NCBI GenBank assembly: GCA_009777535.1
Contig: WRLP01000014.1
Span: forward strand, 1-64,000
Source of the DNA: Treponema sp.
Lineage (GTDB): Bacteria; Spirochaetota; Spirochaetia; Treponematales; Breznakiellaceae
Direction: 5' to 3'
Length of the DNA: 64,000 bases
Shown here: positions 15,660-59,951 of the stretch, piece by piece
Layout of the letters: each line of letters begins with the position of its first letter
Position numbering within the stretch: the stretch's first letter is position 1
The notes under the pieces: model-generated
Database searches by the model: none
The model's input: the letters and a program-made list of their open reading frames with translations, nothing else
What the model was told of the DNA's origin: nothing
Made by a program: the position numbers and the translations under genes

Positions 15660-15802
15660 GCCCAGAAGAAGACTCGAACCCTACACCCCTCAACATCCTG
15701 TTTCGGGGTTCCGGGTCCGCCTTCGGGCGCTGGCGGCGCACATCCTGTGCGCCTTCCCTCCCTACCGGTCGGCGCGCCCTCGGAAGTTCGAGTCTTCTTC
15801 TG
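15660..15802 (-). mobile_element. tRNA-linked structured element A (tRNA-Leu)
   Basis: Reading the minus strand after tRNA-Leu, an inverted 17-bp copy of the tRNA 3' part (CAGAAGAAGACTCGAAC, 15802-15786) is followed by 106 bp of hairpin-rich DNA and a direct 20-bp copy (15679-15660, ending CTTCTTCTGGGC). The two arms pair perfectly. The interior holds hairpins GGCGCAC/GTGCGCC (15753-15735) and ACCCC/GGGGT (15709-15685). The first has the loop AGGAT and the second a longer loop containing it. Sequence blocks are shared with the elements at 27010-27212 and 59683-59951. No coding capacity is evident. The terminator at 15811-15845 lies between the tRNA and this element. Confidence 0.65.
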
Positions 15803-15810
15803 TTCTAATA

Positions 15811-15845
15811 CAAAAAAATAACCGCCCGTGAAACGGACGGTTATT
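15811..15845 (-). terminator. Intrinsic terminator after tRNA-Leu
   Basis: AATAACCGTCCG pairs with CGGGCGGTTATT (one mismatch) around a 5-nt loop and is followed on the minus strand by seven T residues. It would end transcription from deoD and tRNA-Leu before element A. Confidence 0.75.
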
Positions 15846-15959
15846 GCGCACTGACGGATGCCTAAAGGCACCCTTACTTTTGTTCATCTTGTTTACGTTT
15901 TATGGTGCTACAACGTTTAGCATTTAATCATCCGCACCCTTGCGGGTGCTATTGCTTGT

Positions 15960-16043
15960 TGCCCAGAAGAAGACTCGAACTTCCATACCACTGAAGGCAC
16001 TAGTACCTGAAACTAGCGTGTCTACCAATTCCACCATCTGGGC
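15960..16043 (-). tRNA. tRNA-Leu (anticodon CAG)
   Basis: An 84-nt class II tRNA. The acceptor GCCCAGA pairs with TCTGGGC, the D-arm contains GAATTGGTAGAC, the anticodon loop TTCAGGT has CAG at positions 34-36, and the variable arm is long (GTGCCTTCAGTGGTAT). The T-loop is TTCGAGT. CCA is not encoded. It lies downstream of deoD on the same strand. Its 3' 20 nt are duplicated at 15660-15679. Confidence 0.95.
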
Positions 16044-16087
16044 CTGTAGAAACAGATTAGCCGTATTTCAGACAATGGTCAATGGCT

Positions 16088-16792
16088 TTAGCTTACAGCC
16101 GCTTCCAGGGCTATTTCCATCATTTGTGTGAAAGTAACCTGCCGCTCTTCGGAAGTGGTAGTTTCACCGGTAACAAGACTGTCGGAAATTGTCAGTATGC
16201 TTAGGGCTTCACGGCCGTATTTGGCAGCCAGGGTATAAAGCTCGGAGGTTTCCATTTCAACGGCAAGGCAGCCGAATTTTGCCCAAAGTTTCCATTCTTC
16301 CGGGTCTTCGGTGTAAAACATATCTGTTGAGATAACGGTTCCAACCCTGAGCTGCCAGCCTTTTGCTTCAGCGGCATCCCAGGCCTTTTTTAACAGAGAA
16401 AAAGACGCCGTGGGGGCAAAATCCCTTCCCCCGAAACGGATTTTGTTGGAGGCGGAGTCTGTGCAGGCCGACATCGCAATAACCATGTCCCGAATTTTTA
16501 CATCCGCCTGGAGGGAACCGGCAGTCCCGATGCGGATCGCCCTCTTAACTCCGTATTCCCGAAATAACTCATTCACATAAATCGAGATCGACGGGATTCC
16601 CATTCCGGTTCCCTGAACAGATACTTTTTTTCCGTTATATGTGCCGGTATAACCCAGAATGTTACGGACTCCCGTGTACTGTACAGAATCTTTCAGAAAA
16701 TTTTCTGCAATAAATTTTGCCCGCAGGGGATCCCCCGGAAGCAGAATCGCCTCGGCAATTTCACCGTTTTTCGCCGCAATGTGTATCGACAT
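16088..16792 (-). CDS. deoD: Purine nucleoside phosphorylase, DeoD type
   Basis: Cleaves purine (deoxy)ribonucleosides with phosphate to base and pentose-1-phosphate; a cytoplasmic salvage enzyme of the hexameric PNP family. The 234 residues match DeoD in length and motifs: [20 protein letters not shown] at the N-terminus, [20 protein letters not shown], the GTAGSL phosphate-binding region, [10 protein letters not shown] and the late [13 protein letters not shown] is just upstream of the ATG. A related uridine phosphorylase gene lies at 56751-57500. Confidence 0.94.
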
Positions 16793-16832
16793 AAGTTCTC
16801 CTTTGTAGTTTGGTTTCTTGGGTTTTATACCG

Positions 16833-17066
16833 CTACTGCCGCTCCCGGCTTTCCCTTATAGCGGCAAGAATATCATTCATTGAAATATTAGTTTTTATCC
16901 CTTTTATGTGTTCCAGCGGAGACTCTTCCTTTTTTTTGCCTTCATTTATCGAGGTTAATTTAAATTTGTTTCCATCTTTCCTTGTAATTACAACTTCTTC
17001 TTTTAATGCAGTATTTAGCACTGTCGAAAAATTTTGCCTTGCTTCTGAGTAATTAAATATTTTCAT
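16833..17066 (-). CDS. Phd/YefM-like antitoxin
   Basis: A 77-residue protein starting [20 protein letters not shown], the helix and strand signature of Phd/YefM antitoxins that bind DNA at the N-terminus and the toxin with the C-terminal tail (here charged, RESRERQ). It overlaps the 3' end of the PIN-domain toxin gene by 14 bp and follows it, the reverse of the commonest order. It should neutralise the toxin and repress the shared promoter. Confidence 0.8.
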
Positions 17067-17472
17067 CCTGTTCCTCCCCTGGTCTATTCAAAACATCTAT
17101 CTTGAGATCTATTGCCACTCTTTTCATTGCTTCATCAAAAGTTATCAGCGGTATTTTTAATCTGCAAGCTGTCTCTAAATAATATGCGTCATACGCACAC
17201 ATTTTATATTTACAGGCAATTTTTAATGCCTTTTCAATATCTACTTTAATTATTCTGACAGGCAGTGTAACGTATTTTCTGTATCCCAATAATAGTTTTT
17301 CTTCTGTGATCTTCTTCCTTTTGAACAAATTTATCAAGGCATTTCCTATCTCAAAAGAAATTACTTCCGGAGTCAGAAGCGATGCGCTTTTGGTTAATTT
17401 AATAACTTTATTTCTATTTGGCTCATCAAGAATTACGGCCATTATCGCACTTGCATCCAGTAGAACACTCAT
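17053..17472 (-). CDS. PIN-domain (VapC-like) toxin
   Basis: A 139-residue PIN-domain ribonuclease. The acidic metal-binding residues are D6 (LLDASA), E41 (SFEIGNAL), D95 (AYDAYYLE) and D113 (TFDEAM). VapC toxins cleave tRNA or rRNA; the target here is unknown. The ATG at 17472 is preferred over an upstream TTG. The gene and its antitoxin are AT-rich relative to deoD, consistent with transfer. A strong promoter ends about seven bases before the ATG, so the toxin message may be leaderless. Confidence 0.85.
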   Translation of the reverse strand: MSVLLDASAIMAVILDEPNRNKVIKLTKSASLLTPEVISFEIGNALINLFKRKKITEEKLLLGYRKYVTLPVRIIKVDIEKALKIACKYKMCAYDAYYLETACRLKIPLITFDEAMKRVAIDLKIDVLNRPGEEQDENI

Positions 17473-17479
17473 ATTGTAC

Positions 17480-17508
17480 AATGTACTTCATGTGATATTA
17501 TTTGTCAA
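17480..17508 (-). promoter_or_regulatory. Sigma-70 promoter of the toxin-antitoxin pair
   Basis: On the minus strand TTGACA (17503-17508) is 17 bp from TACATT (17480-17485). The overlapping palindrome TTGTACAA (17474-17481) between the -10 and the ATG is a good candidate operator for the antitoxin complex. Confidence 0.7.
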
Positions 17509-17640
17509 GCGGCTGGCTTTCAGGTTAAAAGATTGCAACTATGGAAGCGAGCAGTATAATATACTTGACGTATTTTATCATATTGTTGTATTATGTATTT
17601 AATGAGTCGAAAAACTGCCTATTATAGACAGAATCCCCCC

Positions 17641-17715
<75 letters not shown>

Positions 17716-17907
17716 CGCAATTATATCATATATACCAATAGATTCGTGTCAACTAACTAACAGTTTAATTTTAATCCAACTATCCGTATGTCTATTCTCT
17801 TGGTGTAATTGTCGTTATTATGCTTTCGTTATCATCCCTGCCCTTGAGGGCAGTTGAGGTAAAGTCATTGTCCGCTCATTAGGGCATGCGATCAAGAAGG
17901 AGTTTTT

Positions 17908-18348
17908 ATGAAAAAGTTGAGTTTTATTTGTTTTGTTTTATGGGCTGTGACAATTTGTGGATGTGTGACTCATCCAGCCATTGTTTGGAATGAATCACTG
18001 CCTGATGAAGAAATGGTTACGATTTATTGGATTACGGCAGGGGTTAATCCCGTTTCGTATAATGGTATAAATATTGATTGGAATTTAAAAAAAACAGGTT
18101 GGAATCCAATTAAAATTCCGGAAGGTGTTGTTACATTTGAGCTGAAGGGGAAACAGTACGATAGTGGTCCAGGTTATCGATATGTATATAATTGGGATGG
18201 GATTTCTTTTTCTTTTAATTTTGAAAAAGGAAGGGAATATACTGTTTCACCTTTGTACGCAACGATAAATGTCTATGATGGTAAATCAAACGGAATGGGG
18301 AAGAAAAATCTAATTGAGGCGATAAGACCTGAATGGGAGCGAAAATAA
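17908..18348 (+). CDS. Small lipoprotein, first of a tandem trio
   Basis: A 146-residue protein with an N-terminal signal peptide ending ICGC, a lipobox with the cysteine in the right place. The mature part contains YNGINIDWNLK and a later KGREYTVSP. The next gene encodes a clear paralogue, and even the leader (AAGAAGGAGTTTTTATG) is identical in the two, so they arose by duplication. No enzyme motif is seen; probably an envelope lipoprotein of unknown role. AT-rich compared with surrounding housekeeping genes. Confidence 0.75.
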   Translation: MKKLSFICFVLWAVTICGCVTHPAIVWNESLPDEEMVTIYWITAGVNPVSYNGINIDWNLKKTGWNPIKIPEGVVTFELKGKQYDSGPGYRYVYNWDGISFSFNFEKGREYTVSPLYATINVYDGKSNGMGKKNLIEAIRPEWERK

Positions 18349-18376
18349 TTACCTGCTCAATTTGGGCAGGTAATTA
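18346..18376 (+). terminator. Hairpin between tandem lipoprotein genes
   Basis: TAATTACCTGC (starting at the stop codon) pairs perfectly with GCAGGTAATTA at 18366-18376 around a 9-nt loop. There is no T-run, so it may stabilise or attenuate the message rather than terminate it. Confidence 0.4.
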
Positions 18377-18389
18377 AGAAGGAGTTTTT

Positions 18390-18848
18390 ATGAAAAAGAT
18401 GGGCTTTGTTTGTTTTGTTTTTTCACTATTATCATGCACGACAAGCGCAAAAATTGTATACGATGATACTGTTCCATTGGAAAGCACATCATGGCTTTCT
18501 TTGTACAATGTTGGTACTGTTATCGCATACAATGGAATGGGCGTTAACTGGAAGTTAGGAGCGACCAAAATGCTTCAAATACCAGCAGGCGATACAATTT
18601 TGGAGGTAGATCTTAATAGTATGCGCAGAGGCACTACTTACGGAGATAATATAATGCTTTTTGCTTACGTTTTTGAGCCGCAAAAGCAATATTTTTTTGA
18701 GTTAAACAGAAGTATGTCCACGCGGGGTTTAAATATTTATAAATATGACTTTGGAGAAAAGATTCCAGTTTCATATAAAAAACATAAGGAGCATTATTTT
18801 GAATTCGTTCCGTTTTTAAATGCTCCTGGTAGAATTATCTTAAATTAA
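18390..18848 (+). CDS. Small lipoprotein, second of the trio
   Basis: A 152-residue lipoprotein with signal peptide ending LLSC. It shares with its upstream neighbour the pattern KIVYDDTVP, YNGMGVNWKLG and a following IPAGDTILEV strand. The same kind of IP/VP-x-G-D segment occurs in the third protein. Function unknown; it probably sits on the outer face of a membrane. AAGGAG precedes the ATG at good spacing. Confidence 0.75.
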   Translation: MKKMGFVCFVFSLLSCTTSAKIVYDDTVPLESTSWLSLYNVGTVIAYNGMGVNWKLGATKMLQIPAGDTILEVDLNSMRRGTTYGDNIMLFAYVFEPQKQYFFELNRSMSTRGLNIYKYDFGEKIPVSYKKHKEHYFEFVPFLNAPGRIILN

Positions 18849-18861
18849 CAGGGAGTAAAAA

Positions 18862-19371
18862 ATGAAAAAAACAGTATTGTACACTTTAATAATTGTTGGA
18901 ATTACAACGTTGCTGCTATCTTGCATCGGTCTAACTCATAAAATAGTTGTTGATGAAAATAATCCCGTGGATCAAAATGCTGTAATAACATTTGTCAGCC
19001 ATCGCGAAAAGGGGGTTTTTTTAATAAAAGACTGGAATAATATCAATGTTATGGAAAGTTTTTACGGGGGAAAAGCCATATCAAGTAATGATAGGCACAT
19101 GTTTACAGTTCCTTCTGGAGATAGTACTTTTATATTCGATGTTAGGTACACATTTGATTCTAATTATACATCAACTGCCTACACCATTGAGAATGTGGAG
19201 TTGCAGTTCTATTTGGAAGCCGGAAAAAATTATCAAGTAAGAGGAAGATATAAAGGATTAGGTCTCTTTAAGGGGCATGAATTATTCGTGGAGATTTATG
19301 ATATGACAAATAGTTCTACATTGTTACGCGAGTGGAAAGTAGGAGAAACAGGAGTAGGAATTAGATTGTAA
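18862..19371 (+). CDS. Small lipoprotein, third of the trio
   Basis: A 169-residue lipoprotein (signal peptide ending LLLSC). It is the most diverged of the three but keeps KIVVDENNP at the start of the mature region, a DWNNINV segment and VPSGDSTFIFDV. It follows the second gene by 13 bp, with GGGAG before the ATG, so the genes probably share a transcript. No known family recognised. Confidence 0.7.
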   Translation: MKKTVLYTLIIVGITTLLLSCIGLTHKIVVDENNPVDQNAVITFVSHREKGVFLIKDWNNINVMESFYGGKAISSNDRHMFTVPSGDSTFIFDVRYTFDSNYTSTAYTIENVELQFYLEAGKNYQVRGRYKGLGLFKGHELFVEIYDMTNSSTLLREWKVGETGVGIRL

Positions 19372-19408
19372 TTAAAGGATCAGTATTATTAAAGGAAATA
19401 TAGTACCC

Positions 19409-21121
19409 ATGAAACGCCATTTTTTAACTGTTTTCTTTATCTTAACCCTTCTCTCCCCCGTTAACATTTTTTCACAGCAGGCGCCTTCTGCCGGCGTGCT
19501 GCGGGATTATGTGGGTTTGATCAATCAAACCTACCATCCCGGCATTGTTGCATATTTCGAGAAGATGAAGGACGACCTCGATAGAAGGGGGGAAAGCAAT
19601 GCCGTTAAGGGGATCGAGATTTTTCTTAGGGGAGCGACAGGTTCGGGTTTTATTATTGAAGACGCTCAGGGAAACCTTTATGTGATTACCAACAATCATG
19701 TAATATCCCAGGCCCATTCCCTTTCGATAACATTTGAGCGTCAGGACGGTTTTAAAAAGCAGCTTGATAATCTTAGAATTATTGCCGCCGATGAGGAGGC
19801 TGATCTGGCGCTGCTGGCATTTGCCGACGGAGACAAACCCATGGATCGTGGTTTGAGTTTTCTCAGCCGTTCGATAGATGAGGGAGAAGATGTATATGCC
19901 GCTGGTTTTCCAGCGCTGGGGGCAACGTCTCTGTGGCAGTTCAGCCGGGGCATGGTATCCAATGCCTTCGCAAGATTTCCCAAAAGCGTTTTCGATGAAA
20001 CCCTGATAGGGCCGTTCATTCAGCATACCGCTCAGATTGATCCCGGCAATTCCGGCGGTCCCCTTCTGGTAATTCAACAGAATGTTCCGGCGGGGTATGC
20101 CGTTGCGGGTATCAATACCCTAAGCGGTCTGCGGAGGCAGGCGGCGAACTATGCCGTTCCGGCCGGTACCGCCCAAACCTTTATTGACAGTGCCCTTAAC
20201 CCAAAACCGGAAACCTACAGGGCTGCCCTGGATCAGCGGCTTACCCAATTTGTGGAAGGCCTGGGGGTTAACAGGGCGGTATATCCCCATATCGCAGAAT
20301 ATCTTTCAACAGTTTGTGTGGGCGAAAACGCAGAATACGCCATGTCGGAATTGTACGAAAGGGGCAATGTTTCGGTCAGACGTGCCTTTATCGACAAATT
20401 TGAAGACAGTGTGGTAGGCGCAATGGGTTATGCTGTCGCATGGGTAATTGAGGGAAGCATACGCAGCCAGGGCGTACTCAGATCATCGGTAAAAGAAGTA
20501 ACCGGAGACGGCGAAGAATACACTGTGGTTTTTTCCGTTAACGACAATGATCATGAATCCAAATGGTTACTGGAACACGGCAACTGGCGGATTAGAAGTT
20601 TTGGCAGTCTTGCCGCAGGGGATCAAACCCTGATTAGCCGGAGACAGGCCAGGCAGAGAACAAGGGATAGGCTGCGGCTCGACAGCGATGCCCATATCGA
20701 AATCGGTTATGCCAATCTTTTTGATAAGGCCCCCGCCGCTATGTATCTTTCCGCCGACTTTTTCAGCGGTGTTTTTGGAGCCAAATTGATAATTGCCTCA
20801 GCGGATTTCTGGAGTCTCGGATGCTTTGTTGGTTACCGCCCCGAATTTTCCGCAGGGAAATTTGGCATAATGCCTTATGCGCGGATAGGTATTGACTTTC
20901 AGCATGATCAAGAATGGACGGACTATGAGAACCAGGAATGGGGTGCACTCGGTTTTCCGCTCGTATTTATGGGACAGGCCGGCCTTAAAATAACCAGTTC
21001 CTATGCGCCCGGCCTCTTTTTTGGTATGGCATTCCAGTATAACATCTTTAATCTTATGGACTTTAAATATGATAAAGCAATGAAAATGGCTCTCAGCGTA
21101 ACTATTGGTTATGCATTTTAA
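19409..21121 (+). CDS. Secreted trypsin-like serine protease with C-terminal extension
   Basis: A 570-residue exported protein (signal peptide to about residue 22). The S1 peptidase domain spans about 75-270 with the triad H97 (NNHV), D132 (ADLALL) and S215 (GNSGGPL), like HtrA enzymes but without a visible PDZ domain. The C-terminal part from about 430 has alternating strands (ARIGIDFQHDQ, QAGLKITSSYAPGLFFGMAF) and ends YAF, suggesting a small beta-barrel or autotransporter-like domain. This is distinct from the housekeeping HtrA at 2087-3592. Substrates unknown. Confidence 0.8.
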   Translation: MKRHFLTVFFILTLLSPVNIFSQQAPSAGVLRDYVGLINQTYHPGIVAYFEKMKDDLDRRGESNAVKGIEIFLRGATGSGFIIEDAQGNLYVITNNHVISQAHSLSITFERQDGFKKQLDNLRIIAADEEADLALLAFADGDKPMDRGLSFLSRSIDEGEDVYAAGFPALGATSLWQFSRGMVSNAFARFPKSVFDETLIGPFIQHTAQIDPGNSGGPLLVIQQNVPAGYAVAGINTLSGLRRQAANYAVPAGTAQTFIDSALNPKPETYRAALDQRLTQFVEGLGVNRAVYPHIAEYLSTVCVGENAEYAMSELYERGNVSVRRAFIDKFEDSVVGAMGYAVAWVIEGSIRSQGVLRSSVKEVTGDGEEYTVVFSVNDNDHESKWLLEHGNWRIRSFGSLAAGDQTLISRRQARQRTRDRLRLDSDAHIEIGYANLFDKAPAAMYLSADFFSGVFGAKLIIASADFWSLGCFVGYRPEFSAGKFGIMPYARIGIDFQHDQEWTDYENQEWGALGFPLVFMGQAGLKITSSYAPGLFFGMAFQYNIFNLMDFKYDKAMKMALSVTIGYAF

Positions 21122-21143
21122 GGTTTTTCTGTTGTATTAGTGA

Positions 21144-21149
21144 TATAAT
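21144..21149 (+). promoter_or_regulatory. Candidate -10 element
   Basis: TATAAT lies 28 bp before the ATG of the long repeat lipoprotein, with AGGAGGG between them. No convincing -35 is seen. Confidence 0.3.
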
Positions 21150-21177
21150 GGTAAATATATCCATCAGGAGGGTTATT

Positions 21178-24177
21178 ATGTTTGGAAAGAGAAAAGCGCA
21201 TGTAATATCGTGCGTGGCGGTTCTGTCATTGGCGCTGGTATTTGCCATCACGACCATTGGCTGTCCCACAAGCGGCAGCGGAGGCGGAGGAGGGGGAAGA
21301 GGCAATACATGGAAAGCCCCGGATGGTACGGAAATAACCATTTCCGGCAGTACTTTTACAATAATAGTCCCATCTGCCGGGGACGGATTTGTTTCTGCCA
21401 GGAGTAATATCAGGGGAAATATAAACCAACGCACCGATGAAGAGATGGAAATTACAATAACCCGGTACTCTATAAACGGGGGTAGGTCCTGGTTAAGCAA
21501 AGAACAGTTTATAGACGAACTGATAAAAGACAATGTGGGTGAATCTAATTGGAACTCAATGACCAACGAACAGAAAAATATTCTTAGAGAGAGTTCTGTG
21601 TATACTGGTTCATCTAATGTCAGAAGTCTTCCGGTCTTCTTAAAATTGGCATACTATGAATTGCCTGATGTAAATCAGCTTGTCATAACGCAAACTGTTA
21701 CAACCACTACCACTTCCAATCCTACCAGTACCAGTAACGACACTATAGTTTTTCAACAAGCAGGTACAAGGACGGTTCCTGCCAACCTTGAAGGTCGCTG
21801 GGTATATGAAAGCGCTCCAAACACAATTTTACTGGATTTTACTATTAACCAGTTAGTCCGTAGGCCTGCAGGCGGCGGTTCAACTTTGACTTTCTATGTA
21901 GAGGAAGCCAATGGAAAACTTGAAATAGGCACAAGCCCCGGCATATTTACGCAAACATTCTGCGAATCCTACGCAATAAGCGATGGTGTTCTTACCTTTA
22001 CAGGCGGTCAAAGCGAATCATGGTATCCTGGCGGTGAATTTACAAAATATATATTTCCACCTGCAAACGTTACAATCCTCCCGCTTACTTTTGATCAGTG
22101 GGCAAGCGGTAATATTCCCAATTACAATGTAGAGCAATGGTTCAGCTTTGTTGCTACTGCCGCGACACAGTATATACATATTAATTTTGGCACTTCGAGC
22201 GATTTATATGTACAGGTTTATGACAGAGATGCGGAAACAGTAGGCAGTGAAACAAATTTTTGGGGCAACACTAGCCGTACATCCCGAACATTGATACCAG
22301 GGCAAACCTACTATATCAGGGTAAGAGCATCATCATCCGGTACTTATTCTATTTTATTTAATGCGTCGACTACAGCCCCGGAATATACATGGACGGCGCC
22401 AACCAATGCAGTTCCTCTTACCGCGGGTACTTGGCTTGACAGCAGCATTGCAACTGTAGGCGGCGATGCCTGGTACTCATTTAATGTTACTGCCGCAAAT
22501 ACATACCGTATTTGGTGGAATGACTCCGGACAAGGCAATGGAGTGAAAACCCAAAATGTTAGTGTAACAGCCTTTAACCCAGACGGAACTACAAGATTTA
22601 CAAATCTTGATTCCGCGTGGTCATCAAGCAATGCGGCTACTAATGGTTTTACTCCCACTGCAGACGGTACGATTTATCTTCAGGTAACCGCTACAGCAAC
22701 ACCCGGAGGAACTTATGGCATTGTTTATACCGAAAATGACAATAATAGACCGGTTGCACCCTTTTCTCCGCCTAATGTCACACAGCTTACAGACAGCCAA
22801 TGGAGAGATGACGAGATTACTTCAGCATCTGGCAGCGTTATGTGGTACTCTTTCCCTGTTACCAACGGGACATACCGCATCTGGTGGAATGAAAGCGGCA
22901 GTAATGGCGATGGAACAAAAACTCTGGATGTCAGCGTAGCCGGTTTTTTCAGCGATGGAAGCGAGGCTTTTGCCAGCCAGTCAACAGGCTGGACAACAGC
23001 CCGAACTATTACAGTAGCTGCTCCTGACACTGTCTATCTTAGGGTTACCCCGGCCTACTCAGGGGAAACGGGCACATTCGCAATCATTTACAGCAGTACC
23101 CTTACTGCAAGGCCCATTGAGATTCCTGCCGCCGCTACGGCTCTTACCGCGAATACATGGGTAAATGGCGAAATAACCGAAGCATCAGGTAATGTATTAT
23201 GGTACTCTTTCCCTGTTACCAACGGAACATATTACATATGGTGGAATGAAAGAGGCCTTACCAATGGAAACGGATTAAAAACTCTGGATATCAACGTAGC
23301 CGCCTATTTCGGTGATGGAAGCCAGGCTTTTGCCACCCAGCCATCCGGCTGGTCAACTCCCAGAAGCGTAACAGTGGCGGAGACCGGTACTGTCTATCTT
23401 AGGGTTACCCCTGCTTCCACCGGGGCAACAGGCACGTTTGGAATTGTTTTCAGTACAACAAGCACAAGGCCGACCGGGTCTTTCAGTCCCTTGCCTGTTT
23501 CTACTGCACTAACTGCCGATACATGGGTGGACGGCGAAATTACTGCGGCATCAGACGGTGTAGCATGGTATTCTTTCCCTGTTTCCTATGGATCATATTA
23601 TATCTGGTGGAATGAAGGCGGCTATACCAATGGAAACGGCTTAAAAACCCTGGATGTCAACGTAATCGGCTATTACAGCGATGGAACAGAGGCTTTTTCC
23701 AGCCAGTCAACCGGCTGGTCAACACCTCAAGCTATTACCGCAACTGCTTCTGATACTGTTTATCTTAGGGTAGCTCCTGCTTCAAGCGGGGCAACAGGTA
23801 CGTTTGGCATTGTTTTTAGTGCAATCAATACAAGGCCGTCACTACCCTTTAATCCCCCAGATGTTACCACGCTCACTGAGGGATTTTGGGCAAATGGTAA
23901 TATTCCTGTTGCAAACGGCAGTCAATGGTTCAGCTTTGTTGCTACTGCCGCAACTCAATATATACATGTTGGCTATCTTACGTTGACCGATTTGTATATA
24001 CAAGTTTATCAAATTGATGGAACAGCAGTAGGAGAGGAAACAAATCTCTATAATACTGCTACAAGCATTAACCGGACGGTAATGCCCGGGCAAATGTACT
24101 ACATCAGGGTAAGGCCATGGAGTCCTAATAACTCCGGTACCTACAATATCAAGTTTAGCACATCTGCGACTCCTTAA
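21178..24177 (+). CDS. Large repeat-containing surface lipoprotein
   Basis: A 999-residue protein with a lipoprotein signal (TTIGC at about residues 25-29) and a Gly-rich linker. The second half has four tandem repeats of about 100-120 residues, each with WYSFPV or WYSFNV, then YxIWWNE or YRIWWND, then TVYLRVTPA or IYLQVTA. Two further beta-sandwich units flank them, with QWFSFVATAATQYIH and GQTYYIRVRA or GQMYYIRVRP, which resemble bacterial pre-peptidase C-terminal (PPC) domains. The ATG at 21178 has AGGAGGG upstream and begins a normal signal peptide, so the earlier start is not used. Probably a surface-exposed adhesin-like or binding protein; function unproven. Confidence 0.8.
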   Translation: MFGKRKAHVISCVAVLSLALVFAITTIGCPTSGSGGGGGGRGNTWKAPDGTEITISGSTFTIIVPSAGDGFVSARSNIRGNINQRTDEEMEITITRYSINGGRSWLSKEQFIDELIKDNVGESNWNSMTNEQKNILRESSVYTGSSNVRSLPVFLKLAYYELPDVNQLVITQTVTTTTTSNPTSTSNDTIVFQQAGTRTVPANLEGRWVYESAPNTILLDFTINQLVRRPAGGGSTLTFYVEEANGKLEIGTSPGIFTQTFCESYAISDGVLTFTGGQSESWYPGGEFTKYIFPPANVTILPLTFDQWASGNIPNYNVEQWFSFVATAATQYIHINFGTSSDLYVQVYDRDAETVGSETNFWGNTSRTSRTLIPGQTYYIRVRASSSGTYSILFNASTTAPEYTWTAPTNAVPLTAGTWLDSSIATVGGDAWYSFNVTAANTYRIWWNDSGQGNGVKTQNVSVTAFNPDGTTRFTNLDSAWSSSNAATNGFTPTADGTIYLQVTATATPGGTYGIVYTENDNNRPVAPFSPPNVTQLTDSQWRDDEITSASGSVMWYSFPVTNGTYRIWWNESGSNGDGTKTLDVSVAGFFSDGSEAFASQSTGWTTARTITVAAPDTVYLRVTPAYSGETGTFAIIYSSTLTARPIEIPAAATALTANTWVNGEITEASGNVLWYSFPVTNGTYYIWWNERGLTNGNGLKTLDINVAAYFGDGSQAFATQPSGWSTPRSVTVAETGTVYLRVTPASTGATGTFGIVFSTTSTRPTGSFSPLPVSTALTADTWVDGEITAASDGVAWYSFPVSYGSYYIWWNEGGYTNGNGLKTLDVNVIGYYSDGTEAFSSQSTGWSTPQAITATASDTVYLRVAPASSGATGTFGIVFSAINTRPSLPFNPPDVTTLTEGFWANGNIPVANGSQWFSFVATAATQYIHVGYLTLTDLYIQVYQIDGTAVGEETNLYNTATSINRTVMPGQMYYIRVRPWSPNNSGTYNIKFSTSATP

Positions 24178-24200
24178 AGCGGGGTAAAGCAATGTAAAGC

Positions 24201-24232: not shown

Positions 24233-24242
24233 CTTTACCGCA

Positions 24243-24580: not shown

Positions 24581-24581
24581 C

Positions 24582-26098: not shown

Positions 26099-26436
26099 GG
26101 CGTTTCACCACTTTGGTATTGCCAAAATGCATGCCTCTACGCCGGCGTTTCACTGCTTTGGCGATTGCAGAAATGTGTGCCCTAAAAAAGGTAAAAAGTA
26201 GAAGGTAAAAGGTAATATTCGTCAGCGTTTCACTGCTTTGGTATTGCCAAAATGCATGCCTCTACGCCGGCGTTTCACTGCTTTGGCTAATGCAGAAATG
26301 TGTGCCCAGAATAGGTAACGGGGGGTGTCAGGGGGTAAAAATGGCATGCTTGCATGACATTTTTACCCCTCTGACGGGTCCCCCATTTCCGTATTTAGGC
26401 ACACATTTCTGCTGCTGCCATAGCCGTGGAAAAGCC
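26099..26436. repeat. Foldback repeat element, copy 3, with tandem duplicated arms
   Basis: Four direct arms (26099-26135, 26144-26182, 26224-26260, 26269-26307) form two two-arm units of period 125 bp. An inverted arm follows at 26398-26436. Between the last two lies an imperfect palindrome, GGTAAAAATGGCATGC against GCATGACATTTTTACC, flanked by G- and C-runs (26321-26394). There is no gene here. Confidence 0.8.
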
Positions 26437-26870: not shown

Positions 26871-26943
26871 AGGCGTATAGCTCAGCTGGTAGAGCGGCGG
26901 TCTCCAAAACCGCAGGTCGCGGGTTCGAAGCCTGCTGCGCCTG
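26871..26943 (+). tRNA. tRNA-Trp (anticodon CCA)
   Basis: A 73-nt cloverleaf: acceptor AGGCGTA with TGCGCCT, anticodon stem GCGGT/ACCGC with loop CTCCAAA (anticodon CCA), T-loop TTCGAAG. Bases 26926-26949 are repeated at 27195-27218 (23 of 24 identical) across element B. Lies in the usual position before secE. Confidence 0.96.
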
Positions 26944-27009: not shown

Positions 27010-27212
27010 GCAGGCTTCGAAGCCTTTCAGCCGCCGACCAAATGGGAGGAAAAGGCGCCATGGTTGGCGTGCACCGCCGTATGGCGGTGCTTAGAATCGT
27101 TCCTATCGGCACGCATCCCAAAGGGATGCGCTGGCGCCGGCAGGCTGAAAGGCCGGCCTGGAATGAGCAAACAAGGATGTTTGCGAATGGAAGGCGAAGC
27201 CTGCTGCGCCTG
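27010..27212 (+). mobile_element. tRNA-linked structured element B (tRNA-Trp), inside the secE operon
   Basis: An inverted copy of part of the tRNA-Trp 3' arm (GCAGGCTTCGAA, 27010-27021) starts the element and a direct 18-bp copy (CGAAGCCTGCTGCGCCTG, 27195-27212) ends it. Between them are nested stems: CCTTTCAGCC with GGCTGAAAGG, GGCGCCA with TGGCGCC, GCACCGCC with GGCGGTGC, GCATCCC with GGGATGC, and GCAAAC with GTTTGC around the loop AAGGAT. GCCGACC, GGGAGG and AAGGCGC blocks match element A. It sits between tRNA-Trp and secE, so it should be transcribed with the operon. No credible gene; the short open frames here follow the repeat, not codon usage. Confidence 0.65.
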
Positions 27213-51277: not shown

Positions 51278-51296
51278 TTTATTAAAGGAGAAAAAA

Positions 51297-53660: not shown

Positions 53661-53662
53661 AC

Positions 53663-54865
53663 ATGATTAAAAGAAATCCGTGTATTGCAAATATCAAGGC
53701 GGGATATTTATTCCCAGAAATCGCCAAGCGCCGGAGGGAATACGCCGCCGCCCATCCCGATGCAAAGATAATCAGCCTGGGTGTTGGAAACACCACCGAA
53801 CCTGTCCTGCCGCACATAAATGCCGGCCTTGTGGAAGGTGCAAAAAAACTGGGAACCGTGGAAGGGTATTCGGGCTATCAGGACGAGGGGCTCATTCTGC
53901 TTAGGGAAAAAATTTCGGCTGTTTTCTACGGCGGCCAATTCGCCGCGGACGAGATTTTTATTTCCGACGGGGCAAAGTGCGACATTGGCCGCCTGCAGTT
54001 GCTGTTTGGAGCGGGAACAAGGGTGGCGGTGCAGGATCCGTCCTATCCTGTTTATGTGGACGGATCGGTTCTTATCGGTGCGGCAGGAGAATTTGCGGGT
54101 GATGGCTACAAGGGCATTACCTATCTTCCCTGCACGGCGGAGAACGACTACTTCCCCGACCTTTCAATGCTTCCGCCAAACTGCCTGATCTATTTCTGTT
54201 CACCTAACAACCCAACCGGCGCGGTTTCTACCCGCGAACAGTTGGGGGCACTTGTAAAGGCCGCGCAAAAGAACGGCTCGTTTATCATTTTCGATGCAGC
54301 ATACTCTGAATATATACGAGACAGCGGCCTGCCCAGGAGCATATTCGAAATCGAAGGGGCAAGAACCTGCGCCATAGAGGTTAATTCATTCAGCAAACCG
54401 GCGGGCTTTACCGGTGTGCGCCTTGGCTGGAGCGTGGTTCCAAAAGAGCTAAAATATTCCGGCGGGGAGAGCGTAAATGCGGACTGGGCGCGGATTGCAG
54501 GTACAATCTTTAACGGTGCTTCCAATATCGCCCAGGCCGGAGGGCTTGCCGCCCTAGACGGCAACGGCCTGAAGGAAGTGCGGGAACTGTGCGACTTTTA
54601 TCTGGGAAATGCCCGTTTAATCAGGGGGACTCTGGAAAAGCTGGGAATAAAATGCGTAGGCGGCGATAACTCGCCCTATATTTGGGCGCATTTCCCCGGG
54701 CAGGACAGTTGGGAAGTCTTTGCCAAAATTCTTGACAGGTGCCAGGTTGTTACAACGCCGGGTTCAGGCTTCGGCCCGGCTGGCCAGAGCTTTATCCGCT
54801 TTTCCGCATTCGGCCACCGCGCCGATGTTGAGCAGGCCTGCCATCGATTATCACTCTTCGAGTGA
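53663..54865 (+). CDS. dapL: LL-diaminopimelate aminotransferase
   Basis: A 400-residue class I/II PLP aminotransferase that makes LL-DAP from tetrahydrodipicolinate in one step. The PLP lysine is K245 in NSFSKPAGFTGVRLGW. DapL hallmarks are the N-terminal SLGVGNTTEPVLP, VEGYSGYQDEGL, IFISDGAKCDIGRLQ and CSPNNPTGAVST. Its presence means DapC, DapD and DapE are not needed. The ATG at 53663 has GGAG upstream. A hairpin overlaps its 3' end. Confidence 0.95.
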   Translation: MIKRNPCIANIKAGYLFPEIAKRRREYAAAHPDAKIISLGVGNTTEPVLPHINAGLVEGAKKLGTVEGYSGYQDEGLILLREKISAVFYGGQFAADEIFISDGAKCDIGRLQLLFGAGTRVAVQDPSYPVYVDGSVLIGAAGEFAGDGYKGITYLPCTAENDYFPDLSMLPPNCLIYFCSPNNPTGAVSTREQLGALVKAAQKNGSFIIFDAAYSEYIRDSGLPRSIFEIEGARTCAIEVNSFSKPAGFTGVRLGWSVVPKELKYSGGESVNADWARIAGTIFNGASNIAQAGGLAALDGNGLKEVRELCDFYLGNARLIRGTLEKLGIKCVGGDNSPYIWAHFPGQDSWEVFAKILDRCQVVTTPGSGFGPAGQSFIRFSAFGHRADVEQACHRLSLFE

Positions 54866-54870
54866 TAATC
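54846..54870 (+). terminator. Hairpin at the end of the lysine operon
   Basis: GATTATCACTC pairs perfectly with GAGTGATAATC around TTC; the dapL stop codon is inside the stem. The following TTCT is a short T-tract, so termination is plausible but not strong. Confidence 0.5.
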
Positions 54871-54897
54871 TTCTACGGAAAAAAGGATGAATTTGTC

Positions 54898-55683
54898 ATG
54901 AAAAGAAAAAATTATTTATTATTATTTGTGTTGATATTATTTTTTTTGTCATGTTTTGGGAATAAAACAAATACCACCACTAGTGTATCATCTTCATCAC
55001 AAGTAATAAAGCAAAATGATTTACATGAGACAGGTGATAGCCACTCCAATGTATCTTTAAGTTCTGAAGATTTGATAGAATTTTTACGCAAAAATGAAAG
55101 AAGGATTATAGAACGAGATCTTGATGTTGTTTTTATTGAAAAAGCAAAATTTGGGATACCCGGAGGAGACAATTGGATTGTTCAATTGAGTGACCGTAGT
55201 GGAATACTCATTTATGCTATTAGTGATGACAAAATAGAAAAAAGGTATTATTTAACCAGTTTTAATCTTGAAAACCGTAGCAGCTTTAACATAATGCAGG
55301 ATATTCCTGGCACCCGTATAGGTAATTCAACTAGTTCTTTTGGAGATTTCAACGGAGACGGCATTGATGAAATATTTGAATATGGATTTTATGGACGTGC
55401 GTTTGAGATAATTGTTTGGGGTTATAACGTGGAGAAAGATGATTTTATACCATATTGTACAATACCTTTTAGAATCATTGACTCCGAGTACGGCCCAGCG
55501 CCCGTTGAGTTTATGACTTACAATGGCATGTACGGGTTTAAAGTGTTTTTTTGGCAGAACGAAGTTGCAGGCGGCCCCGGCTGGGTTCCCGATCCAAATC
55601 CAAAAAATGGTAAATGGATATTTTACACCTGGGATGCAGAAAAACGGGAATATGTAGAAGTTGGAGAAGTAATTGAGGAATGA
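54898..55683 (+). CDS. FG-GAP-like lipoprotein
   Basis: A 261-residue lipoprotein (signal peptide ending FFLSC). The mature N-terminus is Ser/Thr-rich and the middle holds a calcium-type FG-GAP/VCBS turn, DFNGDGIDE. The C-terminal half matches the truncated copy at 375-843 almost residue for residue. The next gene encodes another paralogue with a C-terminal membrane anchor. The gene is AT-rich compared with dapL. AAGGATG precedes the ATG. Function unknown; a cell-surface or periplasmic role is inferred. Confidence 0.8.
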   Translation: MKRKNYLLLFVLILFFLSCFGNKTNTTTSVSSSSQVIKQNDLHETGDSHSNVSLSSEDLIEFLRKNERRIIERDLDVVFIEKAKFGIPGGDNWIVQLSDRSGILIYAISDDKIEKRYYLTSFNLENRSSFNIMQDIPGTRIGNSTSSFGDFNGDGIDEIFEYGFYGRAFEIIVWGYNVEKDDFIPYCTIPFRIIDSEYGPAPVEFMTYNGMYGFKVFFWQNEVAGGPGWVPDPNPKNGKWIFYTWDAEKREYVEVGEVIEE

Positions 55684-55764
55684 GAGTAGTTCGTGAGGTT
55701 AGTGGTAAAAAATATTTCTTCTTTGCGTCTTTGCGTGAGGTAACAGGAGGATAAACAAATTAAA

Positions 55765-56724
55765 ATGAAAAAGATATTAGGGCTAGCGTCTCTGTTTATA
55801 TTTATTTCTGTTTTTTCTTATACACAGGATAAAGAACAGGTGATAAATCTATTGTACGAGATTGACACAAGAAGGACGAGGGGAGACGAAATCGTATTTA
55901 TTGAAGAATTTAACTTTGGCATTCCTGGAGGTATAAATTGGCTTGTCGGGTGGTATAGATATGATAGTGACGACGCACGTAGAAATAGAAATCTTATAGG
56001 TCTTTTTATTTATATTGTTGACATTGGCAACAAAGAAATTGTTTTTAGAGAAATGATTCTTTTGGATAATACAAATATACCGGTATATTATACTTCATGG
56101 TATCAAAGCTTACAGGGTGTTGTTATAAGTAATGGGTTATGTATAATCAATGATTTTAACGGAGACGGTTTTGATGAAATATTACAATTTGTTGCTGGCA
56201 TTAGTACTACATTGGATATATGTGGATACGAGCCGCAAACCAATAAAATAAAGTGGTATTGTGAAGCGCCTATTTATATTAGCCGTCAAGATGACCAGCC
56301 TCCACCAGTTGAATTTATCACATACAAAGGTATGTACGGGTTTAGGGCGCAATACCACGAAGGGCCTCAAGTAGCAGGGGGGCCGGACTGGGTTCCCGAT
56401 CCACCAAGCCCCAGAAACAACAGATGGTTTTTCTACACCTGGAATGAAGACAGGCGGGAATATGTCGAGGTAGAGGAAGTAAACCCCGCCTACATTGAGG
56501 AAACTTATGTTAATACAGGAGAATGGCGAAACATACAGCCGGTATTCCCATCTGTTTTAGCTGCCGCAGAAACAGAGGTTGTTGTTGGTGACTCTGCCTC
56601 TGCAATTTCCGAAAACAGCGATGAGCCCAATAACCGGCAGATGCCTTTCTGGGTTTGGGCGGCCATTGGCAGCGGGGCGTTGTTAATTGTTTGTGTTGTG
56701 GTTATTATTAAGCGGAAAAAGTAA
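55765..56724 (+). CDS. FG-GAP-like protein with C-terminal membrane anchor
   Basis: A 319-residue paralogue of the preceding lipoprotein, sharing DFNGDGFDEI, PPPVEFITYKGMYGFRA, the VAGGPDWVPD segment and FFYTWNEDRREYVEVEE. It has a cleavable signal peptide rather than a lipobox and ends with a membrane helix (MPFWVWAAIGSGALLIVCVV) and a basic tail, so it is probably anchored with the bulk outside. AGGAGG lies 14 bases before the ATG, a long spacing. Function unknown. Confidence 0.8.
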   Translation: MKKILGLASLFIFISVFSYTQDKEQVINLLYEIDTRRTRGDEIVFIEEFNFGIPGGINWLVGWYRYDSDDARRNRNLIGLFIYIVDIGNKEIVFREMILLDNTNIPVYYTSWYQSLQGVVISNGLCIINDFNGDGFDEILQFVAGISTTLDICGYEPQTNKIKWYCEAPIYISRQDDQPPPVEFITYKGMYGFRAQYHEGPQVAGGPDWVPDPPSPRNNRWFFYTWNEDRREYVEVEEVNPAYIEETYVNTGEWRNIQPVFPSVLAAAETEVVVGDSASAISENSDEPNNRQMPFWVWAAIGSGALLIVCVVVIIKRKK

Positions 56725-56750
56725 GGTAAAGCAAGCAACCAGGAGTTAAG

Positions 56751-57500
56751 ATGGAAAAACAGTATCACATTGGTTTTAACAGCACGCACGGTGCGTTATA
56801 TGCAATCCTCCCCGGGGATCCCGGACGAGTGGAAAAAATCGCCTCGTATCTGGAAAATCCCCGTTTTCATTGTCAGAACAGGGAGTACACCACCTGGCTG
56901 GGCGAACTTGCCGGCAAGACGGTGATGGTAATATCCACCGGAATGGGAGGGCCGTCTACTGCTATCGCAGTGGAAGAACTATTTTCGACAGGCGTAAGGA
57001 ATTTTATCAGGGTCGGTACCTGCGGAGGCATGGCGCTGCCCATAACAGGCGGAGACCTGGTTATTGCCACCGGCGCAATACGCATGGAAGGCACCACCAG
57101 GGAATATGTTCCCATTGAGTTCCCTGCCGTGGCAAATCTGGACATTACAAACGCCCTCGTGGAAGCGGCGAAAAATATGAAAGCACGGTGGCATGCGGGG
57201 ATTGTGCAATGCAAGGATTCATTTTACGGCCAGCACAGTCCCGCCCGTATGCCGGCCGGTTATGAGCTTAAAGACAAGTGGGACGCATGGATAAAGGCCG
57301 GCTGCCTCGCCTCGGAAATGGAAAGCGCCACCCTTTACATTGTAAGCCAAATTCTCGGCGCGCGTGCCGGCTGTGTTCTTAATGTAATATGGAACCAGGA
57401 ACGCGAGCGCAGCGGAATGGACAACCCCCACTGCCATGACACCAGCCTTGCGATACAAACTGCTGTTGAGGCAGTGCGGATTTTGGTTAAAAGCGGGTAA
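56751..57500 (+). CDS. udp: Uridine phosphorylase
   Basis: A 249-residue nucleoside phosphorylase family member, paralogous to the DeoD gene at 16088-16792. Motifs are ILPGDPGRVEKIA, GMGGPSTAIAVEEL, RVGTCGGMA and a CLASEMESATLYIVSQI substrate segment. It splits uridine (and possibly deoxyuridine) with phosphate. It lies 26 bp after the membrane-anchored protein gene and has AGGAG before the ATG. Confidence 0.9.
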   Translation: MEKQYHIGFNSTHGALYAILPGDPGRVEKIASYLENPRFHCQNREYTTWLGELAGKTVMVISTGMGGPSTAIAVEELFSTGVRNFIRVGTCGGMALPITGGDLVIATGAIRMEGTTREYVPIEFPAVANLDITNALVEAAKNMKARWHAGIVQCKDSFYGQHSPARMPAGYELKDKWDAWIKAGCLASEMESATLYIVSQILGARAGCVLNVIWNQERERSGMDNPHCHDTSLAIQTAVEAVRILVKSG

Positions 57501-57511
57501 CTTGCTAAAAT

Positions 57512-58054
57512 TTATATATAAGTGATAGGTCCCTTGTAAGTTCCTTTTACTGTTCCGGCTGGTTTTTCATCATCGTCTTCTAGGGTGCAGTCAATTGTTA
57601 TGGTATATGTAGCATTTTCCCCTTTTCCCGAAACAGTTACTTTTACAGTTCCTCCGGAGACATAATAATAATTCGAGTCATCTTTTGTGTTCATATCCAC
57701 ACAACCAAAGTCAAAAGTAAATGGCTTGTTTGTTTCAGACATGTTGTATGTCCCTGCAACCAATACATCACTATTTTCGGGGCCATACAAATCAAATTCA
57801 ATAATGATGTAGAGATCTTCTGTTTGCTCTGTAAACAGGCACAGGCTAAACTCCGAACCGTAGTCCTGTATTTCACCTTCCTGGCCAAACGTATAAGTTT
57901 TGCCTCTCAACGTGAAATTACCGTAATTGGAACCGCCCGATGGAACGTATCCAGAACCGTCCGATGAGCCTCCACCCGAGGGACAGGCAATCATTGTAAA
58001 CCCGGCCGCCGTTATAAGGGCGATTAATCCAATCAGCTTTACCAGTTTTTTCAT
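57512..58054 (-). CDS. Small lipoprotein of unknown function
   Basis: A 180-residue lipoprotein with signal peptide ending FTMIACPS. The mature part begins with a Gly/Ser-rich linker and consists of beta-strand-rich segments, ending GTYKGPITYI. The ATG at 58054 has AAAGGAG upstream; an earlier in-frame start would extend into non-signal sequence. It has no recognised domain. Its 3' end converges on udp with 11 bp between stops. Confidence 0.7.
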   Translation of the reverse strand: MKKLVKLIGLIALITAAGFTMIACPSGGGSSDGSGYVPSGGSNYGNFTLRGKTYTFGQEGEIQDYGSEFSLCLFTEQTEDLYIIIEFDLYGPENSDVLVAGTYNMSETNKPFTFDFGCVDMNTKDDSNYYYVSGGTVKVTVSGKGENATYTITIDCTLEDDDEKPAGTVKGTYKGPITYI

Positions 58055-58146
58055 ACAAAACTCCTTTAGCTGTATAATAGCACGCTCTGTTTTAGTGTCA
58101 AGAGCATATGAGCATAACGCCTGAAACCATGTACACAAGAGGCCAT

Positions 58147-58191
58147 TTGCTTTTTGCACAGAATTTCACTTGCTTTTTGCCAAGTTTTCAC
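58147..58191. repeat. Two direct repeats of period 23 before the second ATPase gene
   Basis: TTGCTTTTTGC occurs at 58147-58157 and 58170-58180, each followed about ten bases later by TTTCAC or TTTTCAC. It lies 25-70 bp upstream of the AAA ATPase ATG. A regulatory array is possible, as at 25891-25973. Confidence 0.5.
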
Positions 58192-58215
58192 GTAAGGTTT
58201 AAGCAAGGGGATCTT

Positions 58216-59490
58216 ATGTCTTTGAAAAGAGAAGGCTATAAAACCAGGCTTGTCGATAAAAAACTTAGGGAATATCTAAAATTATTCGGCGCTGTTTCCG
58301 TAGAGGGGCCTAAATGGTGCGGAAAAACATGGACATCCCTTAACCACGCGAATAGTATCACGTATATTATGGATCCAGCCGGTGATTACAACAATAAAAC
58401 AAGGGCAGAGCTTAACCCTTCTCTCGTGCTGGAAGGAAAGACACCCCATGTCATAGATGAATGGCAGGAAGTTCCCGGTATTTGGGATGCAGTCAGATTT
58501 AATGTTGATCAAAACCCAGGTTTTGGGAAGTACATTTTAACCGGCTCTGTTACCCCTCCTCGTGAATCGTACAAGCACAGCGGGGCGGGCAGGATTGCCA
58601 TAGTACGGATGCGCCCCATGACACTGTATGAGTCCGGTGATTCTGATGCTGCAGTGTCTTTAATTTCATTGTTTTCAGGTAAAAAAATTAATCCATTTAC
58701 TGCGGATATTGACCTTGTACATCTTATAGATATTACTATTCGCGGCGGTTGGCCGCAGACACTTAATTTGCCTCTCGAAAAGGCCGGGAGCGTTTCTGTT
58801 GAGTATATTAACGCGCTTCTTAAAAATGATTTATTCAATGATAATTTTTCAAAACGAAATTCGTCAAAGTTGCATGTTCTTCTGCGCTCATTGGCCAGGA
58901 ATAATGCTACAACAGTCAGTGACGCTACTTTAACCAGAGATATTGCCGGTAATGATACAATGCTTTCACGCAACAGTATCGCAGATTATACAGCCGATCT
59001 TAAACGTATATTTGTAATAGAAGAAATTCCAGGTTGGATGCCGGGTATCCGCTCTAAAACCAGGATTCGGATGTCTGGGAAATTGATATTTGCCGATCCT
59101 TCTCTGGCTATCGCAGCCCTTGGTATTGGAAGGCAGCGCTTGCTCGAAGATCTTAATACCTATGGTTTTATGTTTGAAAATCTTTGTCTGCGTGATCTGT
59201 ACGCATACGCTGAATTGCATGGCGCATCTCTGTATCATTACAGGGATAACAGTAATCTGGAAGTTGACGCAATCGTTGAAATGAAAGACGGCGCATGGGG
59301 AGCCTTCGAAATAAAACTCGGCGAAAACCAGGTTGAAGGTGCCGCCCAGACCTTGCTCAGGCTAAAGAAGAAAATTGTGTCTGATGGGGCAAGAGAACCC
59401 TCATGCCTTGTGGTTATGACAGGCGGCGGTTTGGGCTGGAAACGCGAAGACGGTGTTTATGTAATACCGGTGAATGCATTAAAGCCATGA
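58216..59490 (+). CDS. AAA ATPase of the AAA_14/DUF4143 type, second copy
   Basis: A 424-residue ATPase distantly related to the one at 24582-25892. The P-loop is GPKWCGKTWT at 31-40 and Walker B is HVIDEWQEV. A DUF4143 C-terminal part includes YRDNSNLEVDAIVEM and FEIKLG, nuclease-fold-like segments. The ATG at 58216 has AAGGGG upstream and gives the expected N-terminus; the open frame upstream carries repeated non-family sequence. Role unknown. It is followed by tRNA-linked element C and repeats. Confidence 0.82.
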   Translation: MSLKREGYKTRLVDKKLREYLKLFGAVSVEGPKWCGKTWTSLNHANSITYIMDPAGDYNNKTRAELNPSLVLEGKTPHVIDEWQEVPGIWDAVRFNVDQNPGFGKYILTGSVTPPRESYKHSGAGRIAIVRMRPMTLYESGDSDAAVSLISLFSGKKINPFTADIDLVHLIDITIRGGWPQTLNLPLEKAGSVSVEYINALLKNDLFNDNFSKRNSSKLHVLLRSLARNNATTVSDATLTRDIAGNDTMLSRNSIADYTADLKRIFVIEEIPGWMPGIRSKTRIRMSGKLIFADPSLAIAALGIGRQRLLEDLNTYGFMFENLCLRDLYAYAELHGASLYHYRDNSNLEVDAIVEMKDGAWGAFEIKLGENQVEGAAQTLLRLKKKIVSDGAREPSCLVVMTGGGLGWKREDGVYVIPVNALKP

Positions 59491-59589
59491 CACAGTCGAT
59501 GTGCGTATTCAGAATTTAAACGGTTGACAACATTGATACGCCATGTTCAGAAAAACATTTGGAGCATACCGCCGCCCTCCACGACTGTT

Positions 59590-59618
59590 GTTTGAGATCA
59601 CAATTTGTGATCTCAAAC
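59590..59618 (+). terminator. Perfect palindrome after the AAA ATPase gene
   Basis: GTTTGAGATCACAA is mirrored as TTGTGATCTCAAAC around a single T. There is no clean T-run (TTTCC follows), so it may be a weak terminator or a protein-binding palindrome. Confidence 0.45.
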
Positions 59619-59682
59619 TTTCCTATTCATCTTAAGCATGACCTTCTGCCCGCGAATTTCGTGAATCATGTTTTTAATTGTG

Positions 59683-59951
59683 AGCCAAGACGGGGAATCG
59701 CCTTCCGCCCCTCAACATCCTGCTTCGGGGCTCCAGGCCGTCTTTTTTGCTAAACCGGTCGTCCGAGCGCGCTGTTCAGGCTAAAGCCTTCACGCAAATC
59801 CTGTCTTGATGGCATTTACTTAGCGCTACGCCGTGCGGCATTATACATCTACACAGCTGTCGCTGTGCTTTATTTGGGCGCCCTGCCGGTTTACCGGTTT
59901 AAGGCTGCGATGTCTCGCCTTAAACCGGCCGCAAAAAAGTTTCGATTCCCC
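59683..59951 (-). mobile_element. tRNA-linked structured element C (tRNA-Thr)
   Basis: Reading the minus strand after tRNA-Thr, a 9-bp inverted copy of the tRNA 3' arm (GGGGAATCG, 59951-59943) is followed by 242 bp and then a direct 18-bp copy (CGATTCCCCGTCTTGGCT, 59700-59683). The interior contains a 12-bp perfect stem CCGGTTTAAGGC/GCCTTAAACCGG (59894-59928) and a GCCCC/GGGGC hairpin with AGGAT in the loop (59707-59731). The last 33 bp before the tRNA copy closely match element A, with a compensatory change in the closing base pair. No coding capacity is evident. Confidence 0.65.

Follow-up and report, generated by a model that had tools for sequence, protein, structure and literature searches.

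The window analysed here, which is the whole stretch of 64,000 nucleotides (nt) from the Treponema sp. contig WRLP01000014.1 (contig C14), belongs to a source genome of 2.77 Mb in 47 contigs. Four transfer RNA (tRNA) genes are all that ARAGORN and Rfam detect in it, and three of them, tRNA-Leu(cag) (15960..16043, minus strand), tRNA-Trp(cca) (26871..26943, plus strand), and tRNA-Thr(cgt) (60014..60088, minus strand), are the host genes of small elements termed A, B, and C, respectively. A sequence-only reading of the window had proposed that these elements form one family, recognisable by hairpins with AGGAT-type loops, and that they are either small mobile elements or RNAs that titrate CsrA. 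The follow-up confirms the observation with corrections and supports the interpretation in part.

Each unit has the order tRNA, trailer, inverted arm, core, and direct arm. The most striking feature, which had no place in the reasoning of the earlier reading, is that both end arms are copied from the adjacent tRNA's own 3' part. Element A, which lies on the minus strand, takes both its arms from nt 56-73 of tRNA-Leu: the inverted arm CAGAAGAAGACTCGAA (15787..15802) is the reverse complement of the tRNA 3' part, with a complementarity that runs on through CTTCC at 15782-15786, and the direct copy, or tail2 (15659..15676), is identical to nt 56-73 over 18 nt. Between the two lies the core (15678..15781), predicted to be a structured RNA, with a body hairpin that has an AGGAT loop, GGCGCAC-AGGAT-GTGCGCC (15735..15753), and a 3' hairpin, P3, which reads ACCC-GGA-ACCCC-GA-AACA-GGA-TGTT-GA-GGGGT-GTA-GGGT (15678..15716) and includes the ACCCC..GGGGT pairing at 15685-15709 on the tRNA strand. 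Element B, on the plus strand and in the order rpmG, tRNA-Trp, element, secE, nusG, has an inverted arm GCAGGCTTCGAA (27010..27021) that is the reverse complement of the tRNA-Trp T-arm, a core (27022..27194), a P3 hairpin with an AAGGAT loop (27155..27195; inner stem 27167-27184, GCAAAC-AAGGAT-GTTTGC), and a direct copy of tRNA-Trp nt 56-73 (27195..27212; 18 nt identical). Element C, again on the minus strand, has an inverted arm GGGGAATCGAA (59941..59951), a core with a P2 helix of the CTTTTTTGC/GCAAAAAAG type (59701..59940), a P3 hairpin with the loop CAGGATG (59700..59739; inner part 59707-59731, GCCCC..GGGGC), and a direct copy of tRNA-Thr nt 56-73 (59683..59700; 18 nt identical).

The hairpins that had been quoted for A, B, and C are real, and all were located on the tRNA strand. 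AGGAT-type loops, which had been attributed to every copy, are found in the P3 hairpins of all three, but the body loop is degenerate in B (~27054-27069), where it reads ATGGTT and has lost the GGA, and is split in C. The core sequence that had been quoted needs correction in C, which reads GCAGGATGT rather than ACAGGATGT. The extra base of the CsrA consensus from SELEX (systematic evolution of ligands by exponential enrichment) is present in B only (ACAAGGATGT); for A and C, the CsrB repeat CAGGATG is the better fit. What splits the body GGA loop of C is a second, unrelated small repeat (GCGCCCAAATAAAGCACAG...GCACGGCGTAGCGC...GAAGGCTTTAGCCTGAACAGCGCGCTC; ~59765-59882, minus strand); a similar repeat splits the L013 element at the same loop and also occurs in or beside L018, L009, and L080. 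Two hairpins with a stem of at least 6 pairs and a GGA loop exist in the window, both within elements, where 0.3 are expected and the maximum in 40 Markov controls is 1. Since the excess of such hairpins over chance is modest within the window by itself, the case depends on further copies.

The search for these copies relied on a covariance model of the shared P3 hairpin, in a first version and then in an improved one (R2). In the source genome, the two versions gave 15 and 20 P3 matches, respectively, which correspond to about 18 distinct copies, the remainder being parts of one array. All the copies in this genome are downstream of tRNA genes, on the same strand, with hosts that include tRNAs for Leu, Trp, Thr, Ser, Gln, Arg, Ala, His, Lys, and Glu; a site picked at random is roughly estimated to have a chance of ~0.6% of falling at such a position. 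Model matches are present in 46 of 60 relatives and in 116 of the 221 near-complete genomes of the order (about half). The highest number of copies per genome is 22 (G032), some genomes of the same genus have none, and the carriers include complete single-contig genomes; the complete genome G091 has 16 matches. A scan of ~85,000 genomes with a sequence-only pattern returned 61 matches in 58 stretches, all in records of Treponema or other Spirochaetota save for one bin labelled Tannerella; every one of the 54 evaluable matches is just downstream of a tRNA or transfer-messenger RNA (tmRNA) gene and on the same strand, while the other 7 begin too close to a contig end.

The few copies for which no tRNA was recognised are located behind tmRNA (L038, L046) or behind the 3' half of a tRNA (L070, L075), in short stretches, or at the ends of contigs. 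The tmRNA has its T-arm and acceptor in common with tRNAs. The half genes (Thr in L070:390-860, Pro in L075:1120-1590) have no 5' half, as would be expected where a larger integrated island has one of its ends. The contig with the P3 pattern in the Tannerella bin (L191) probably belongs to a Treponema from the same gut sample and was misbinned. No copies were found on viral contigs, phages, or plasmids with exact patterns and one blastn query.

Throughout the family, C56 is the first base of the direct arm, which repeats nt 56-73 of the neighbouring tRNA. The inverted arm reproduces, as a reverse complement, the T-arm from nt 56 to about nt 65 together with the T-loop TT, and the join between core and target is T55|C56; in a minority of copies, element A included, the left junction is a few bases deeper into the T-arm. 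Averages from 110 copies put the identity of the direct arm to its own tRNA at 92-99% for exactly 18 positions, after which it drops. An identity of 90-100% persists in 82 copies with trailers that are by now at chance level, and 55 of the 69 copies tested are identical over all 18 nt, leaving few differences in tail2 in which acceptor-stem compensation could show. The inverted arm is complementary to tail positions 1-9 at 0.88-1.00; in this genus, the match extends as far as position 9 or 10, with chance level thereafter, and it is longer in some copies, mainly from other families. The core usually measures 95-125 nt, and the most common spacing between C56 and the core in the genus is 89-97 nt. 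One compact copy is that behind tRNA-Gln in G000 (L011:1430-1545).

The core folds into a helix formed by the arms (P1), a second helix (P2), a GNRA or short hairpin, a hairpin with a GGA loop, and P3 with a second GGA loop; GNRA-type loops are common. P3 has the plan GCCT-[GGA]-stem-[GA]-stem-loop-stem-[GA]-stem-[GGA]-AGGC, in which the tandem G.A step comes after either 5 or 2 pairs, with a total of 11 pairs in both forms. An alignment of 13 copies of P3 has changes on both sides in 11 of 15 pairs, and 84.6% of its cells are paired; none of 500 shuffles reached its count of both-side pairs or its covariation score. For three types of core, the degree of pairing in the predicted P1, P2, body hairpins, and P3 is 95-98%, which clearly exceeds that of shuffles, and 20/22, 28/46, and 25/31 pairs have changes on both sides. 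This covariation, together with the copies found by the model across the genome and the order, upholds the claim that A, B, and C belong to one family. Outside the loop-closing pair, P3 has about 30 G-U pairs versus 1 A-C pair on the tRNA strand, and in 108 of 110 copies the fold is better on the sense strand than on the antisense strand. This wobble bias and the greater stability of the sense strand favour a core that would act as RNA rather than as single-stranded sense DNA.

That the elements might be small and mobile, as one half of the earlier interpretation had it, is borne out by filled and empty orthologous sites, by exact target duplications, and by similar cores with locally matching arms. 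At the conserved tRNA-Trp-secE locus, 5 of 30 genomes have complete elements (G000, G011 with two, G013, G014, and G022), and the site in the others, as judged by eye, is empty or has remnants. In G013, the 80 bp that start at C56 of tRNA-Trp are exactly duplicated and flank the inverted arm and core on both sides, and at tRNA-Ala in G011 there is an exact duplication of 79 bp; such occupied and empty sites with a target duplication are expected of a transposable element. Moreover, one core type (e.g., ACTTTTTTGCGG... with GCAAAAAAG) is found with 83-90% identity behind Met, Arg, Trp, His, Ala, and other tRNAs, with arms that match each local tRNA, which means that the arms are derived from the target and that the core is the moving part. 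Mobility with target-derived arms is thus well supported. The trailer was also considered as part of the mobile unit and was ruled out, since trailers at different tRNAs share nothing beyond chance.

As for the loops, P3 has GGA in 131 of 149 copies (88%, CAGGANG), and a second hairpin has a GGA loop, typically C-A(N)GGAN-G, in 119 of 128 cores; these counts answer the question of whether the loops are conserved in further copies, and they leave the CsrA reading standing, as does the presence of an intact CsrA in the window's own genome. The repeat of CsrB is CAGGA(U/A/C)G (PMC7652899), and another published motif is ANGGAN, which the AAGGAU hexaloop of RsmZ-2 fits (PMC3791407). The GGA loops of the elements equal both the CsrB repeat and the ANGGAN motif, and they present it in hairpin loops, as sponge RNAs do. 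The gene csrA is present in 202 of the 221 genomes of the order, and the element occurs in 112 of these 202 versus 4 of the 19 without csrA (p=0.007). This association is carried by one family, f4, in which all 8 genomes with csrA and none of the 10 without it have the element. The joint absence in those 10 genomes corresponds to a co-loss in one clade, and the contrast within f4 probably reflects few independent events. The binding of CsrA to the loops of the element is plausible. Searches with the CsrB, CsrC, and RsmX/Y/Z families of Rfam gave no match in A, B, or C at E up to 1.

We consider it probable, with some reserve, that the family consists of small mobile elements that are non-autonomous, yield a structured RNA as their product, have the T-arm of tRNA and tmRNA genes as their sole target, and might also serve as a tRNA-linked CsrA sponge. 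In recent copies, ~80 bp of the target (nt 56 to about +62) are duplicated, so the upstream tRNA stays whole, and both arms belong to the local tRNA, so they are made from each new target. One way in which this could occur is that, once the tRNA gene has been cut, the core is joined to its right half on both strands, like a hairpin cap, which would create the inverted arm; another origin of this arm could be snap-back copying at TTCGAA, the palindrome in the T-loop. The cap would then be opened a short way in, leaving the inverted arm behind, and repair against the intact tRNA would generate the duplication. The RNA of the element would be transcribed behind the tRNA, and its two CANGGANG/CAGGANG loops could be the binding sites of a dimeric protein that recognises GGA loops, with CsrA as the leading candidate; the copies together may then act as a sponge. 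A bolder formulation, which we regard as possible but less likely than not, is that RNA-structured mobile elements hop between tRNA and tmRNA genes harmlessly and have both termini rebuilt from each new target, with the inverted arm providing a built-in complement of the tRNA and the pair of CsrA-type loops a tie to a global regulator.

Several observations weigh against the mobile-element reading. The full duplication is visible in few insertions, those that are fresh enough, and the C56-core spacing of ~92 nt is typical of the genus but shorter elsewhere, for example in G091. No gene for a mobilising enzyme is found in any copy, although integrases and HUH enzymes were not searched for. In many genomes rich in elements, among them the window's own and G032 with its 22 copies, as well as in the carriers G008, G007, G040, G043, G045, G048, G051, and G057, no reverse transcriptase (PF00078) was detected; a mechanism based on it is therefore not favoured, and a standard reverse transcriptase is unlikely to be the mobilising enzyme. 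The conservation of tail2 beyond the P1 pairing (nt 66-73) is explained neither by RNA folding nor by one-way insertion. Since P1 does not use this part of the direct arm in the genus, its conservation is best explained if tail2 has to remain a usable tRNA end, for example because the unit excises. The CsrA part of the reading has to contend with a P3 loop that is CGA in 17 of 149 copies and something else in 1, with a presence of csrA that does not predict the element outside f4 (Fisher p=0.74), and with four near-complete genomes that carry copies, mostly with intact GGA loops, and no detected csrA.

These last points bear equally on the best-surviving alternative, namely that the elements are CsrA-titrating regulatory RNAs on tRNA transcripts that are kept for this function, with movement being secondary. 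This was the other half of the earlier interpretation, and its support is circumstantial: there are two motif-equal loops per element, which remain fixed while their stems covary, csrA is present both in the own genome and in most of the order, function appears to be at the RNA level, and the element follows csrA in f4. It loses ground in that 12% of the P3 loops have changed, csrA tracks the element in f4 alone and there through phylogenetically few events, and several csrA-positive genomes of the same genus have no copies. A pure sponge also needs neither arms matched to the tRNA nor a conserved copy of nt 66-73, and we regard this alternative as possible but doubtful.

Another possibility, which we hold to be unlikely although not much less so, is that the elements are cassettes moved at the T-arm by a site-specific (tyrosine) recombinase, for which tail1 and tail2 would be attachment sites. 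Units composed of tail, trailer, inverted arm, and core would then excise and reinsert, and excision would fuse tail2 to the 5' part of the tRNA and so keep tail2 tRNA-like. The junction is precisely in the T-loop; the 18-nt identity block, which runs from the T-loop to nt 73, restores the gene as in the tyrosine-integrase elements of tRNAs, and outlasts the decay of the flanks; and identical or near-identical units form tandem arrays (L060, L062, L067, and L251). Such integrases, however, normally use fixed attachment sites, whereas the copies are at nearly every species of tRNA with newly matched arms, and no copy contains a recombinase gene, the distribution of integrases not having been examined.

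Spread without a dedicated enzyme would let cores move while arms remain local, if T-arms with TTCGAA/CGAATCC in common underwent ectopic template switching or gene conversion. It fits junctions in the palindromic microhomology TTCGAA, which is common to most tRNAs, and the shuffling of cores among tRNAs, but each event would call for several precisely placed switches together with a duplication whose length stays near 80 bp, and we find it improbable. More remote still is an intron-like or alternative tRNA 3' end, in which RNA processing joins nt 1-55 to tail2 and both tails are functional: tail2 is indeed a complete tRNA 3' part, identical in most copies and conserved past the stretch paired in P1, but an intact tRNA directly upstream makes splicing unneeded, there are no splice-site or known intron features, and the Rfam search gave no intron. 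Finally, chance hairpins in unrelated tRNA trailers, which the slight excess of GGA hairpins in the window might have allowed, are refuted by the homologous copies throughout the genome and the order, the covariation, and the copying of the arms.

The elements have partial parallels in several known systems. The sponges CsrB/CsrC and RsmX/Y/Z likewise have GGA hairpin loops with CAGGAUG or ANGGAN and more than one site per RNA, but they are single-locus, stress-regulated, and rich in sites (22 GGA in CsrB), whereas the spirochaete elements are dispersed and tRNA-linked, with two candidate sites each and arms copied from the tRNA. Regulatory RNA within the trailer of a tRNA transcript is also represented by sponges of the 3'ETS-leuZ type (ETS, external transcribed spacer), which pair with small RNAs and come from a single trailer rather than from a repeated, structured, and inserted element. 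Mini integrative elements at T-loops (the sites of tyrosine integrases) share the T-loop junction, the copy of the tRNA 3' end, and the intact tRNA; the present elements differ from them in being ~0.1 kb long and gene-free, in using nearly all tRNAs and tmRNA, in having arms made from the target, and in being structured at the RNA level. Repetitive extragenic palindromic sequences and bacterial interspersed mosaic elements (REP/BIME), miniature inverted-repeat transposable elements (MITE), and the Rickettsia palindromic elements are similarly small, dispersed, palindromic, and gene-free, but they are not confined to tRNAs, and their ends are their own rather than copies of the target. The attC cassettes of integrons have an imperfect hairpin with inverted arms and tandem arrays of units; here, in contrast, no IntI-type gene or attC consensus was seen, the arms are tRNA sequence, and the wobble bias speaks for RNA.

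With both gathering and relaxed thresholds, Rfam gave no relevant family, tmRNA being the sole match in the related loci tested, and no matching tRNA-linked repeat of spirochaetes or link between CsrA and tRNA was found in the open-access literature. The earlier statement that no described family with this layout was known agrees with these searches, in which none was found to combine exclusive linkage to tRNA and tmRNA, target-derived arms, a long duplication of the target that is similar in size, and a structured RNA that is conserved. If the proposal is true, it would imply a mechanism, not known before, that copies target DNA into the ends of an element, and a new manner in which small elements exploit tRNA genes safely; the family might also provide the first CsrA-binding RNAs of this type from spirochaetes, located on a large share of a genome's tRNA genes. 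Since the family is common and occurs in complete single-contig genomes, these ideas should be testable in culture.

Elsewhere in the window, a near-perfect long palindrome (GGGGGGTGTCAGGGGGTAAAAATG...CATTTTTACCCCTCTGACGGGTCCCCC) is located at 26319-26385, upstream of tRNA-Thr(ggt).

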